A stretch of 47,837 nt of DNA from Nitrospirota bacterium (GTDB taxonomy: Bacteria > Nitrospirota > Thermodesulfovibrionia > Thermodesulfovibrionales > UBA1546): NCBI GenBank assembly GCA_016208915.1, contig JACQXE010000031.1:1-47837 (forward strand), written 5' to 3'. Below, one piece after another: positions 13,857-37,705 of this stretch (positions are counted from its first letter, which is position 1; every line of letters starts with the position of its first letter). Made by a program: the position numbers and the translations under genes. The notes beneath the pieces were generated by a model. The model saw nothing but the letters and a program-made list of their open reading frames with translations, searched no databases and had not been told where the DNA came from.

Positions 13857-14870
13857 ATGGACTGTAAATTGACAGAAAAAGTGAAGGCTGCAGGCTGAGC
13901 CGGAAAACTGGGTCCGTCGGACCTGGAAAAGATTTTAAGCTCTACAGTACAGCCATCAAAAAATTCTGTGCTTGTGGGACCCGGAGATGATGCAGGAGTC
14001 TATCTCCTCCCCGGAAATCATGCAATTGTAGAAACTGTTGATATAATAACACCTGTTGTAAACAACCCATTCGAATTCGGTGCGATAAGCACTGCAAACT
14101 CCTTAAGTGATGTATACGCAATGGGCGGAAAACCTCTGACTGCACTCGCATTAGTAGGATTTTCATCCTGCGATTTCGGACCAAAGGTAATTGCAGAGAT
14201 ACTAAAAGGCGCTGTGGATATGCTCAATAAAGCAGGGGTTTCTTTATTGGGAGGGCACAGCTTTGAGAACCCTGAAATCAGATTCGGACTTTCAGTCACA
14301 GGCATAATCAACAAGGATAAAATACTCAGGAAAAGTGGTGCAATCCCCGGCAATGTGATAATAATTACAAAGCCTTTAGGAATCGGCGTTATTACAACTG
14401 CCCTGAAAGGCAGACGGCTCAAAGATAAAGATATAAGGACTGCAGTTAAGTGGATGCTTACATTAAATGACAAAGCCTCTGAGGCGGCCTTAAAGGCAGA
14501 TGCAAGCTCAGCAACTGACGTTACTGGTTTTGGGCTGCTTGGCCATGCATCTAACATGCTCGCCGGAACGGATGTGAATTTCATAATAGAACCTAAGGCA
14601 ATACCTGTGATCGACAAAACAAGAGCCATGATCGCCTCAGGCATGATACCTGAGGGTGCGTATAATAATCTCAAGTTTTTCGAGGGTGAGGTTGAGTATC
14701 CCCGTGGTTTTTCAGAAGACGAGAAGCTGCTCCTGGCAGATCCTCAGACATCAGGAGGCCTGCTGATAACTCTTGCGGCAGACAGGTTGGACGTCTTCAG
14801 AAAGATGGCTGTCCCGTGCACTGTTATAGGCAGGGTGGAAAAAGGAAAAGGAAAAATCAGGGTGATTTAA
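13857..14870 (+). CDS. selD: selenide, water dikinase with selenocysteine (SelD)
   Basis: 337 aa when the TGA at 13896-13898 is read as Sec14. The N-terminus then reads LTEKVKAAG-U-AGKLGP, matching the SelD Cys/Sec-x-x-Lys site (Sec14, Lys17; Cys17 and Lys20 in E. coli). Reading from the GTG at 13968 would remove this catalytic segment. Next come VGPGDDAGVY, NSLSDVYAMGGKP, GGHSFENPE and TDVTGFGLLGHASNM. It makes selenophosphate from selenide and ATP for tRNA-Sec and selenouridine. A SECIS-like hairpin follows the TGA, and selB is 9 kb away. GH57 starts 7 bp downstream. Confidence 0.94.
13896..13926 (+). promoter_or_regulatory. Sec UGA codon and SECIS-like hairpin of selD
   Basis: After the TGA (13896-13898) come 9 nt and then CTGGGTCC (13908-13915), loop GTC (13916-13918), GGACCTGG (13919-13926): an 8-bp stem including two G-U pairs. 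The loop carries G-U and lies about 18-20 nt after the TGA, the distance expected for SelB recognition in bacteria. It is inside the coding sequence, as bacterial SECIS elements are. Confidence 0.75.
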
Positions 14871-23111: not shown

Positions 23112-23242
23112 TTTTTAGTCCTTTTTGAAGCAAATTATTAGTTTATTTTATTTTTTAGTTAGTTATTTGTCAATCGCTTAATATGCAGGCCTGCCTAAAA
23201 AAAAACACAAAAACTGAGAGGCTTTCATATATACTTTTATTA

Positions 23243-25123
23243 ATGCACTTTGTAATACTCGGTACAGCAGGACATATAGACCATGGGAAAAGCGCCCTTG
23301 TTAATGCCCTTACAGGTATTGACCCTGACAGGCTCAAAGAAGAAAAAGAGCGGGGGATTACTATTGACCTTGGTTTTGCTGATTTAACGTATCCTGACGG
23401 CCTGACAGTCGGCATAATTGATGTGCCCGGACATGAGAGGCTTGTAAGAAATATGCTGGCCGGCGCAGGCGGAATCGATATAGTTGTGCTTGTCATTGCA
23501 GCTGATGAAGGGATAATGCCTCAGAGCAAAGAGCATCTGGCAATATGCAATTTATTAAAAATAAAATCCGGGCTTATTGTCATTACAAAGATAGACCTCG
23601 CTGAAGCAGACGGGGTTAAACTTGTTGCAGAAGAGATCCGGAATTTTGTGAAAGGCACTTTTCTTGAAAATTCAGAGATAATACCTGTCTCATCAAAGAC
23701 CGGTGAAAACATCGATCTACTTAAGGAAAAAATCAGGGAAGTTGCTTTAAAAATCAGGCCCAAACTTACAAAAGGACTATTCAGGCTGCCGATAGACAGG
23801 GTATTCACACTGAAAGGATTCGGCACTGTTGTTACAGGCACAGCCCTCTCAGGAAGCATATCAGTAGATGATGCTGTAGATATACTTCCAACAGATATAA
23901 AGAGCAAGGTGCGGGGGCTTCACAGCCACGGCAAATCAATAAAGACTGCATATGCAGGCCAGAGAGTTGCCATCAATCTTACAGGCGTTGAAAAAGAAAG
24001 CCTGAGCAGGGGAGATGTTGTAGTTGTCCCGAACAGATTTGTTCCGACAAAGACTGTAGATGCAAATATTGAGCTGCTTAAAAATGCCCCTGTTTTAAAA
24101 AATAAAAGCCTTGTCCATTTTCACTCAGGAACAGTAGAGGTTATAGCAAGGATAATAATGTATGACAGGGAAGAGCTAAAATCAGGCGAAGGATGCTACT
24201 GCCAGTTCCGGCTCCAGGAGCCTGTCATTGTAATGTCAGGCGACAGATACATAATTAGAAGATTTTCTCCTGTCGAGACAATAGGCGGCGGTGAACTGCT
24301 CGATGTATACCCCACAAAGAGAAAAAAGAGCGAGGGGACCGATGACCTCGTAACATTTGAAAAAGGCACGTTCGATGAAAAAATAGCGATGAAGATTAGG
24401 AAAGCCGGAGCATACGGGATACCTGCATTGCTCATTGAAGGTTGGATAAATTCAGACATCCCTGTAATAAAAGAGTCCATCAAAAAATTGAAGGAAACCG
24501 GCATAATTGTACAATTTGAGGATATTCTTTTTCACAGCCTTCCTCTGAATTCTATAAAAGAGGAGGCAAAAAAGATCATCAGTGAATTTCATAAAAAAAA
24601 TCCCCTGAAAACAGGGACGCCTAAAGAAGAACTGCGGACGCATTTCAAGGTTGAGCAGAGAATATTTGATGCAATAATAAATTCAATGCGTGATATTGTG
24701 ATTGATAAAGATATCATACGTTTATCAGAATTCAGGGTTTCCCTGTCAGAGTCGGATGAAGGAATAAAAGCAAAAATACTCAATACCCTTGACCAGAGCG
24801 GCTTTCAGCCTCCACTCAAGGATGAGTTATCCAAGAATCTCGCCATACCGCCCAAGCAACTTGATGACCTGTTGAAACTTATGGCAAAGGAAGGAACGCT
24901 TGTAAGGATAAACGACTCCATGTATATTACAGCCTTCTCCCATAAAAAAATGGTGGATTCGCTGAAAAACTTTTTCAAAAAGAAACCTGAAATGACAGTC
25001 GCTGAGTTCAGGGATATACTTGGAACGTCAAGAAAATACGCACTACCGTTTCTCGAATACCTTGACGTTGCAAGAATTACAATGAGGGTCGGGGATTCAA
25101 GGAAGTTATTATTGAAAACTTAA
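23243..25123 (+). CDS. selB: selenocysteine-specific elongation factor (SelB)
   Basis: 626 aa. The GTPase begins at MHFVILGTAGHIDHGKS, with ERGITIDLGFADL, DVPGHERLVRNM and TKIDL. EF-Tu-like domains II and III follow (GTVVTGTALSGSI), and a SelB-specific domain IV with about four winged helices (residues about 380-626) binds the SECIS RNA. It delivers Sec-tRNA-Sec to UGA. I start at ATG 23243 because the 20 residues upstream are not conserved-looking. selA and selC are not in the window. The ald gene follows by 22 bp. Confidence 0.95.
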   Translation: MHFVILGTAGHIDHGKSALVNALTGIDPDRLKEEKERGITIDLGFADLTYPDGLTVGIIDVPGHERLVRNMLAGAGGIDIVVLVIAADEGIMPQSKEHLAICNLLKIKSGLIVITKIDLAEADGVKLVAEEIRNFVKGTFLENSEIIPVSSKTGENIDLLKEKIREVALKIRPKLTKGLFRLPIDRVFTLKGFGTVVTGTALSGSISVDDAVDILPTDIKSKVRGLHSHGKSIKTAYAGQRVAINLTGVEKESLSRGDVVVVPNRFVPTKTVDANIELLKNAPVLKNKSLVHFHSGTVEVIARIIMYDREELKSGEGCYCQFRLQEPVIVMSGDRYIIRRFSPVETIGGGELLDVYPTKRKKSEGTDDLVTFEKGTFDEKIAMKIRKAGAYGIPALLIEGWINSDIPVIKESIKKLKETGIIVQFEDILFHSLPLNSIKEEAKKIISEFHKKNPLKTGTPKEELRTHFKVEQRIFDAIINSMRDIVIDKDIIRLSEFRVSLSESDEGIKAKILNTLDQSGFQPPLKDELSKNLAIPPKQLDDLLKLMAKEGTLVRINDSMYITAFSHKKMVDSLKNFFKKKPEMTVAEFRDILGTSRKYALPFLEYLDVARITMRVGDSRKLLLKT

Positions 25124-35688: not shown

Positions 35689-36099
35689 ATGAAGCTCTTA
35701 ATGTTCTATACACATGAGTGGTGGTACAAGACTGCATTGAAGACACTTCCTGATGTGCCTGATACTGAAAAAGAAGAATCTATAAAAAATACAGTGGTGA
35801 TATTCTTTCATGCAGAGGCAGAGGATGAGGCAAAGAAAGACGGTGTATTGCAGAAATTTGTAAAGAACACTAAATGGCTCGCAGGCAAGTTCAATACAAA
35901 AAATGTAGTGCTACATTCTTTCAACCACCTTTCGATAAGCAAATCATCGCCTGAATTTGCAAAGGCATTGCTTGATGAGGTAATCGAACGGCTTGATAGA
36001 ACAGGTTATACTGTGATGCTCACTCCTTTTGGATATTTTAACGAATTTAAGATGCATGTGGCAGGGGATTCATTAGCTAAGGTGTATAAGGAGTTTTAA
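35689..36099 (+). CDS. stand-alone threonyl-tRNA synthetase-type editing domain
   Basis: 136 aa. MKLLMFYTHEWWYKTAL, VVLHSFNHLSISKSSPEFAK and TPFGYFNEFKMHVAGDSLAK match the D-aminoacyl-tRNA-deacylase-like editing domain found at the N-terminus of archaeal ThrRS. As a free-standing protein it may clear Ser-tRNA-Thr or D-aminoacyl-tRNA in trans. No synthetase gene is nearby. The assignment rests on motif recall. Confidence 0.72.
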   Translation: MKLLMFYTHEWWYKTALKTLPDVPDTEKEESIKNTVVIFFHAEAEDEAKKDGVLQKFVKNTKWLAGKFNTKNVVLHSFNHLSISKSSPEFAKALLDEVIERLDRTGYTVMLTPFGYFNEFKMHVAGDSLAKVYKEF

Positions 36100-36122
36100 A
36101 TATAGATTAATAATAAGATCAT

Positions 36123-36256
36123 ACAGACAGAACATAGTATTTGAGCGGCATTATTTTGCCGATATTCCGACAGCATACAATACAGATAATCAAGAGGCAA
36201 AATACCTCGGAGGTCGGAACGACCGAGAATGAGCGAAAATTTTATGTTCTGTCTGT
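36123..36256. repeat. dispersed inverted-repeat element, copy C
   Basis: Perfect 14-bp terminal inverted repeats ACAGACAGAACATA (36123-36136) and TATGTTCTGTCTGT (36243-36256). Inside: TTTGAGCGGC, TTTTGCCGATATTCCGACAG, GAGGCAAAATACCTC, a GGTCGG-AAC-GACC hairpin, GAATGAGCGAAAAT. It is the best preserved copy and ends just before the possible -10 box of the next gene. Confidence 0.8.
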
Positions 36257-36262
36257 TAATGC

Positions 36263-36268
36263 TATAAT
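36263..36268 (+). promoter_or_regulatory. possible -10 box (TATAAT)
   Basis: A consensus TATAAT sits 11 bp before the ATG at 36279. A start about 7 nt downstream would give an almost leaderless mRNA. No good -35 box is seen; the region upstream belongs to repeat copy C. Confidence 0.3.
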
Positions 36269-36278
36269 TTAAATACTT

Positions 36279-36467
36279 ATGGATATTTGTCCTGTTTGTA
36301 AGGAACTAATTGATAAATGCATATGTTGTCCTGAGTGAGGGCATGTCTGCCTCCTGGATTTGGGGGAGTTATATTGTCCTGTGTGCAAACCTGATCCATC
36401 AGAGATTCGCCGAGGCGAAAAAGAGATTATTAAGGCTACGTTAAGTCTTAAAAATATAAATAAATGA
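36279..36467 (+). CDS. candidate small selenoprotein, Cys-rich zinc-ribbon-like (in-frame TGA)
   Basis: 62 residues if the TGA at 36336-36338 is Sec20; no name recognised. Cys at 4, 7, 14, 16, 17, 24, 33 and 36 give CPVC, then CICCPE-U-GHVC, then YCPVC. Sec stands where a zinc-ribbon Cys would be expected. A hairpin follows the TGA at bacterial-SECIS distance. The terminal TGA overlaps the rarA ATG (ATGA), and I see no separate ribosome site for rarA, so rarA translation may depend on read-through. The segment at 36406-36419 is a TTCGCC-type micro-palindrome kept in frame. The alternative is a pseudogene with one Cys-to-stop change. Confidence 0.5.
36336..36366 (+). promoter_or_regulatory. 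in-frame UGA and candidate SECIS hairpin
   Basis: TGA 36336-36338, then CCTCC (36350-36354), loop TGGATTT (36355-36361), GGGGG (36362-36366), with one U-G pair. The loop lies 17-23 nt after the TGA and contains GG, close to the geometry of E. coli fdhF. A stem this short can occur by chance. Confidence 0.4.
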
Positions 36468-37705
36468 TGAGTCTTTTTAATAAACCTGAAAACCTAAAAG
36501 ACCCCCTTGCCTACCGGATGTGTCCGAGGACTCTCGATGAATATGTCGGACAGGAACATATCCTCGGAGAAGGGAAACTTTTGAGAAGGGCTATCGAAGC
36601 TGACAGGATTACCTCCATAATACTTTACGGGCCGCCCGGCACTGGAAAGACAGCACTTGCAAAGGTGATTGCGAACAAGACGAATGCGCATTTCGAGTGG
36701 CTTAATGCTGCAACAGTAGGACTCGATGAGCTCAGGAAAGTCATAAAAAAGGCAAAGACTCAAAAATCAGAAGGCGTTAGGACTATACTTTTTCTTGATG
36801 AGATTCACAGATTCAACAAGTTACAGCAGGATGCGCTTCTGCCTGATGTTGAAGAGGGAAATGTCACTCTTATTGCAGCAACAGTCGAAAATCCATTTTT
36901 TTATGTGAATTCGGCCCTGCTTTCAAGAAGTCAGGTATTTGAGCTTAAACCGCTATCCCGAGAAGACCTGCTCAGGGTATTAAGAAATGCATTGATTGAT
37001 AAAGAAAAAGGGCTTGGAAATCTTACTATTTCCTTTAAAGATGATTGCCTTGAGCATATTGCAAAGATGGCTGACGGAGATGCAAGAAAGGCGCTGTCTG
37101 CCTTGGAGATAGCTGTCCTTACAACACCCGCTGATGAAAAGGGAGAGATACTCATCACAAAAAAGATATCAGAAGAATCTATCCAGAAAAAAGCAGTTGT
37201 TTATGATAAAAAAGGAGACCAGCATTATGATACCATCTCTGCATTCATTAAAAGCATGCGGGGCTCTGATCCTGATGCAGCAATCTATTATCTTGCAAAA
37301 ATGCTTTACGCAGGGGAGGATCCGCGCTTTATTGCAAGACGCATAGTCATCTGCGCTGCTGAGGATGTTGGACTTAAAGACCCCACGGCATTGATACTTG
37401 CCACTTCTGCTCTGAAGGCAGTGGAACTTGTCGGTATGCCTGAGGCGCGCATACCTTTGGCAGAGGCAGTGATTTACATTGCGAATGCACCAAAGGGGAA
37501 TGCAGCCTATGTTGCAATTGAAGAGGCAATGAAAGATGTGGCTTCAGAGGAGACGCTCGACGTGCCTGACCATCTTAAAGACAGTCATTATCCCGGGGCA
37601 AAGGAACTCGGACATGGAAGCGGCTATAAATATCCGCATGATTATCCTGAAGGTCTTGTAGATCAGGAATACCTGAAAAAAAAGAAAAAATATTATAAGC
37701 CTTAG
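36464..37705 (+). CDS. rarA: replication-associated recombination protein A
   Basis: 413 aa. AAA+ module: Walker A LYGPPGTGKTALAKVIA, Walker B ILFLDEIHRFNKLQQD, sensor VENPFFYVNSALLSRS. The tetramerisation part has MLYAGEDPRFIARRIVICAAEDVGL and YLKKKKKYYKP. RarA/MgsA acts at stalled replication forks with SSB. The start is 36464 or 36467. No convincing ribosome site is visible, which fits coupling to the upstream small ORF. Confidence 0.95.
   Translation: MMSLFNKPENLKDPLAYRMCPRTLDEYVGQEHILGEGKLLRRAIEADRITSIILYGPPGTGKTALAKVIANKTNAHFEWLNAATVGLDELRKVIKKAKTQKSEGVRTILFLDEIHRFNKLQQDALLPDVEEGNVTLIAATVENPFFYVNSALLSRSQVFELKPLSREDLLRVLRNALIDKEKGLGNLTISFKDDCLEHIAKMADGDARKALSALEIAVLTTPADEKGEILITKKISEESIQKKAVVYDKKGDQHYDTISAFIKSMRGSDPDAAIYYLAKMLYAGEDPRFIARRIVICAAEDVGLKDPTALILATSALKAVELVGMPEARIPLAEAVIYIANAPKGNAAYVAIEEAMKDVASEETLDVPDHLKDSHYPGAKELGHGSGYKYPHDYPEGLVDQEYLKKKKKYYKP

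Follow-up and report, generated by a model that had tools for sequence, protein, structure and literature searches.

How a short, cysteine-rich reading frame interrupted by a TGA comes to stand directly in front of rarA, and whether that TGA is a stop at all, is the question raised by positions 36279-36467 (forward strand) of the window, the whole 47,837-nucleotide stretch of the Nitrospirota contig JACQXE010000031.1 that was analysed. Re-translation bears out the preliminary description of a Cys-rich frame of 62 codons with one TGA at codon 20 (36336-36338, forward strand), which is the sole in-frame internal stop and is followed at the end of the frame by a terminal TGA. With the internal TGA written as U, the translation reads MDICPVCKELIDKCICCPEUGHVCLLDLGELYCPVCKPDPSEIRRGEKEIIKATLSLKNINK. 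We conclude, with a probability of roughly 0.93, that this frame encodes a member of a new family of small selenoproteins, about 45-65 amino acids long, and comparison with related sequences strongly supports the reading of codon 20 as selenocysteine (Sec).

The family extends well beyond the window. With the 62-residue frame as query and X placed at the UGA, 50 of 101 relatives yielded homologues; a profile built on the conserved part did so for 92 of 396 genomes sampled from the phylum. Most of the genomes are MAGs. A scan of named genomes returned 63 loci, mostly from Nitrospirae or Thermodesulfovibrionales MAGs; about ten are labelled Deltaproteobacteria or Proteobacteria, where every member seen has the Cys form, and two archaeal loci were set aside as short partial matches. 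Across 102 distinct coding sequences, the codon at the position of codon 20 is TGA in 63, TGC in 33 and TGT in 6, with no other residue, TAA or TAG at this column in the set. Conservation of UGA and its alternation with Cys, which the preliminary description had proposed as the check on Sec insertion, are therefore both found (63 TGA against 39 Cys codons). Residues C4, C7, C14, C20/U20, H22, C24, C33, P34 and C36 are invariant in the alignments, and C16 is invariant or nearly so; the predicted protein-sequence pattern of the family is C-x2-C-x6-C-x-C-C-x2-U-x-H-x-C-x8-C-x2-C. By parsimony, the Sec and Cys states have changed at least 15 times on a quick tree that is poorly supported, the protein being short. 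Two genomes (G253 and G375) each possess one Cys copy and one UGA copy.

Were the UGA a nonsense mutation or a sequencing error, the gene would be dead or truncated, and visible decay does exist in a few relatives, namely a frameshifted copy at locus L045 and a copy at L050 with a TAA and lost cysteines. Such decay, however, contrasts with the identical UGA codon in 63 distinct members, never replaced by TAA or TAG, and with purifying selection past the UGA. When UGA members are compared with each other, the median dN/dS is about 0.21 upstream of the UGA; for codons 31-39, which lie past the hairpin discussed below, it is 0.17. On either side of the UGA, third codon positions vary far more than the other two. 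Low dN/dS together with third-position variation past the UGA indicates that the region downstream is translated. A downstream hairpin, moreover, is enriched only in UGA members. A dead or truncated gene is on this evidence extremely improbable, and the nonsense-mutation reading of codon 20 was rejected on the conservation of UGA. The decayed copies at L045 and L050, and the loss of the gene from genome G007, indicate instead that the small selenoprotein gene is dispensable.

In bacteria, the signal associated with a Sec codon is a SECIS hairpin, and PMC13188914 (Fig 2) gives its constraints as a loop of 3-9 nt with a G in its first two positions, an upper stem of 4-16 bp, a spacing of 16-37 nt and a minimum free energy at or below -7.5 kcal/mol. 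In the window, the putative apical hairpin of a bacterial SECIS occupies 36350-36366 (forward strand) and consists of a 5-bp stem (36350-36354 paired with 36362-36366) and a 7-nt loop (36355-36361). The loop, UGGAUUU, has G at positions 2 and 3 and spans +17 to +23 from the UGA, leaving 16 nt between UGA and loop; it lies exactly where the preliminary description had placed it. Closed by a lower stem, the structure has an energy of -15.6 kcal/mol, and it falls within the published constraints quoted above. Taken alone, it is only modestly better than shuffled sequences (z -1.42), and the significance of the hairpin comes from comparison across the family rather than from the single window sequence.

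For that comparison, the 22-nt apical region was set against synonymous-codon shuffles that kept each protein. The local energy has a mean z of -2.07 in UGA members versus -0.03 in Cys members (Mann-Whitney p 2.6e-12). Of 63 UGA members, 56 form a hairpin with 5 bp or more around nt 19 (30.5 expected from synonymous shuffles), and of 39 Cys members 16 do so (18.4 expected). The Gly29 wobble gives GGG in 53/62 UGA versus 6/37 Cys members (p 1e-11), and the Leu26 wobble gives CTG in 53/60 versus 9/34 (p 4e-8). All these UGA/Cys contrasts are partly phylogenetic, related sequences not being independent. Only two UGA/Cys pairs are both independent and fully supported, and in these the hairpin follows the codon about 0.9 times on average and the reverse occurs almost never. 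Some UGA members display the same loop on differently paired stems, such as UCUCCUA/UAGGAGA in L009, GCCUGC/GCAGGU in L041 and UGCCCUCG/CGAGGGCG in L172. Because the register of the hairpin varies from member to member by one or two bases, pair counts by fixed columns were set aside. Hairpins are weak in the UGA members L151, L152, L156, L158, L162 and L167, which form one class-level group. Taken over the family, the comparison shows that UGA members carry a predicted SECIS-like hairpin and that Cys members do not maintain it. One Cys member with a TGT codon (L014, genome G012, at a contig end) has kept the hairpin in a genome that retains selA and tRNA-Sec, which suggests a recent switch from UGA to UGU.

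Decoding of UGA as Sec also depends on the cellular machinery, and the claim that the genome encodes selB and a selD that is itself of Sec type is confirmed within the window. The Sec-specific elongation factor gene selB lies at 23183-25123 (forward strand; TIGR00475, 394.6 bits against a cut-off of 242.25), and selD, with one internal TGA, at 13866-14783 (forward strand; TIGR00476, 327.1 bits). Outside the window, the same genome contains selA and a tRNA-Sec with a UCA anticodon and G73, the single SelC-type tRNA over the cut-off. In the phylum sample, selA occurs in 82 of the 92 genomes that have the family and in 92 of the 304 that do not (Fisher p 1e-24). SelB or tRNA-Sec scores above the cut-off in each of the seven UGA-bearing genomes that lack selA, and none of the 65 UGA-bearing genomes is without a Sec marker. 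The proposal that Sec is inserted at codon 20 is thus borne out by the conserved UGA, the alternation of UGA with Cys, the UGA-specific hairpin and the Sec machinery, all of which were found. In genome G087 (contig C105, 4711-5259), an intact tRNA-Sec lies beside fragments of a broken selA, one of which contains a TAA; this genome appears to have lost Sec synthesis recently.

Since the alternative residue of the family is Cys, it is also necessary to consider whether a SelC-like tRNA-Cys of the selC* type inserts Cys at the UGA instead. Elsewhere, some selC* tRNAs read UGA, and a UCA-anticodon selC* tRNA-Cys has been described; the selC* tRNA-Cys known from Nitrospirae has a GCA anticodon (PMC7609411). 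A second SelC-like tRNA is indeed found in relatives of the window genome (L198, L200, L201 and probably L199; that of L198 has U73), but its anticodon in L198, L200 and L201 is GCA and not UCA, which is consistent with selC* tRNA-Cys of the kind described. SelC-like tRNAs in relatives are accordingly a likeness to the selC* systems of PMC7609411, and the difference lies in the window genome itself, whose only SelC-type tRNA is UCA with G73, that is, tRNA-Sec and not a U73 tRNA, and which also possesses selA, selB and selD. Reading of the UGA as Cys is very unlikely on these grounds. A reassignment of UGA throughout the genome, for instance to Trp or Gly and without Sec, has a vanishingly small probability: the only other residue at the site is Cys, the Sec machinery is present, the other genes examined follow the standard code, and no support for reassignment was found.

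With selenocysteine as the preferred reading, the question becomes what kind of selenoprotein is encoded. No convincing match was found in Pfam (best E 0.65), in NCBIfam, NF041197 and NF041239 included (E up to 10), or in a plasmid tblastn search, and none of 37 members matched TIGR02605 (FmdB) at E up to 10. Profile matches in the PDB reach only E 0.005 and weaker and mostly reflect ferredoxin-like Cys spacing, and an AlphaFold2 model of moderate confidence (pLDDT 71.8) gave no Foldseek match to a solved structure. The zinc ribbon suggested in the preliminary description is plausible only as a Cys pattern; no match to the fold itself was found. A search of the literature for the family motif returned nothing relevant, and excerpts of the 2026 table of prokaryotic selenoproteins (PMC13188914) contain no recognisable counterpart. 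The suggestion that the protein is undescribed stands with respect to Pfam, NCBIfam and those excerpts of the 2026 table, and is qualified by a groundwater-MAG survey of the same year (deep-Sep, Deng et al.), which may list the family.

As far as these sources extend, the evidence supports a previously unlisted bacterial selenoprotein family that belongs to a known kind of system. It shares with the bacterial SECIS-dependent selenoproteins listed in PMC13188914 (Table 1) an in-frame UGA, Cys homologues, Sec genes in the genome, and a hairpin 16-37 nt downstream with a G in the first two loop positions. Unlike the families listed there, it has no model match, places its putative Sec within a cluster of C and H residues in a protein about 60 amino acids long and, in the order to which the window belongs, has its promoter directly at the start codon. 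The FmdB-family regulatory protein (TIGR02605), a zinc ribbon already predicted with Sec, is likewise small and CxxC-rich with Sec at a putative metal-ligand position, but its Cys spacing differs and there is no HMM match. The dual CXXC motif small protein NF041197 and the CC/Se motif family selenoprotein NF041239 are also small Cys-rich predicted selenoproteins, yet the family has no NCBIfam match.

Going by the established mechanism of Sec decoding in bacteria, SelB together with Sec-tRNA-Sec(UCA) would bind the hairpin, the loop of which begins at +17 from the UGA, and Sec would be inserted at residue 20; without selenium, translation would end after 19 residues. A small metal-binding or redox protein can be put forward tentatively as the product, in which the two CxxC pairs would bind a structural metal, and Sec20 together with C14, C16, H22 and C24 would make up a reactive or metal-binding centre; this role is drawn from the Cys/His/Sec pattern, the model being of moderate confidence and matching no solved structure.

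A further aspect of the gene, absent from the preliminary description, is how it appears to be expressed. A TATAAT promoter -10 element at 36263-36268 (forward strand) ends 10 nt before the start codon, and an exact TATAAT precedes the start in 44 of 62 UGA members, in 43 of them at 5-14 nt; over all members the count is 56 of 101, against 3 expected from shuffled upstream sequences. The start point set by such a -10 element leaves no room for a Shine-Dalgarno sequence downstream of it, and for this reason the mRNA of the small selenoprotein gene is probably leaderless or near-leaderless. Transcription from the adjacent TATAAT would start at or a few bases from the AUG, and translation would proceed on a leaderless mRNA. 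The TATAAT-at-start arrangement is characteristic of the order to which the window belongs, and several more distant members, including the UGA member L176, possess Shine-Dalgarno-like sites instead. Immediately upstream, positions 36120-36260 hold a repeat roughly 135 bp long, bounded by inverted ends of 20 nt (ACAGACAGAACATAGTATTT...); its right end abuts the TATAAT, and at least 40 related copies are present in the window genome. Further upstream, at 35689-36099, this bacterium encodes as a separate protein an editing domain of threonyl-tRNA synthetase of the 'archaea-specific' type (PF08915, E 1e-41).

Downstream of the frame, the next gene is rarA, encoding an MgsA-type AAA+ ATPase (36467-37705, forward strand; PF12002, PF16193, PF00004). 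The ATGA overlap of the two genes reported in the preliminary description is present at 36464-36467, but the rarA proteins of relatives begin MSLF, MDLF or MGLF, which makes the second ATG (36467) a more likely start than 36464 and reduces the overlap to 1 nt. The related observation that rarA has no ribosome site of its own was correct, as no Shine-Dalgarno-like site precedes it in the window. In 11 loci, all of the taxonomic family of the window, rarA lies downstream, and in six of these (L003-L008; five distinct coding sequences) the frame stops exactly 9 nt before it. Within this family, the small selenoprotein gene heads a bicistronic unit that also contains rarA, and a promoter-plus-operon arrangement with possible translational coupling to rarA is a reasonable reading of the sequences of the window's lineage.

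The preliminary description had named three observations that would speak against Sec: close relatives without the frame, relatives with other stops or frameshifts, or Cys throughout with this strain alone differing. None of these emerged as a pattern. Where close relatives lack an intact copy, the gene is cleanly deleted from G007, with TATAAT and rarA kept; its site upstream of rarA is taken in G003 by another small Cys-rich gene (L191, about 1195-1485); G010 has a frameshifted copy; and rarA of the window type was not found in the assemblies of G008 and G014, where the small gene is also missing. Outside the window's family, the gene precedes yajQ, an NfeD-type serine protease gene, DUF177/yceD, tadA or others, and it is fused in frame to tadA in L151 (a UGA form with the UGA inside the fused frame), L153, L157 and L165, the names yajQ, NfeD, DUF177 and TadA having been assigned by eye from translations. 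The proposed coupling to rarA accordingly holds as adjacency in the window's own taxonomic family, whereas other neighbours are found elsewhere, and there is no single partner gene that explains function. Assigning a function from the neighbours was rejected because the downstream genes differ by lineage.

This distribution also bears on whether the UGA is a termination-based selenium sensor, in which the frame would be a leader peptide that controls rarA and the protein itself would be irrelevant. The 9-nt gap of L003-L008, the 1-nt overlap in the window and the missing Shine-Dalgarno sequence of rarA would all suit such a device, but the protein is under purifying selection, the family stands upstream of many unrelated genes or is fused to TadA, the gap to rarA is large in L002 (168 nt) and L013 (133 nt or more), and G007 retains promoter and rarA without the gene. 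A sensor of this kind therefore has a slim chance of being correct. Returning to a genuine selenoprotein, a further and still unlikely elaboration is that it is made from a leaderless mRNA with Sec as a metal ligand, and that decoding of its UGA also gates translation of rarA in the window's lineage; if true, this would place a DNA-maintenance gene encoding a replication-repair ATPase under selenium-dependent control.

The small frame in front of rarA thus represents a widespread and so far unlisted selenoprotein family in Nitrospirota, with a Cys form in Deltaproteobacteria, that gene callers likely miss because its members have about 60 amino acids and an internal stop. Its switches between UGA and Cys with matching loss of the hairpin, together with genomes that hold a Cys and a UGA copy side by side, offer a test case for the origin and decay of SECIS elements, and its apparent leaderless start allows Sec decoding on leaderless mRNAs to be asked about.
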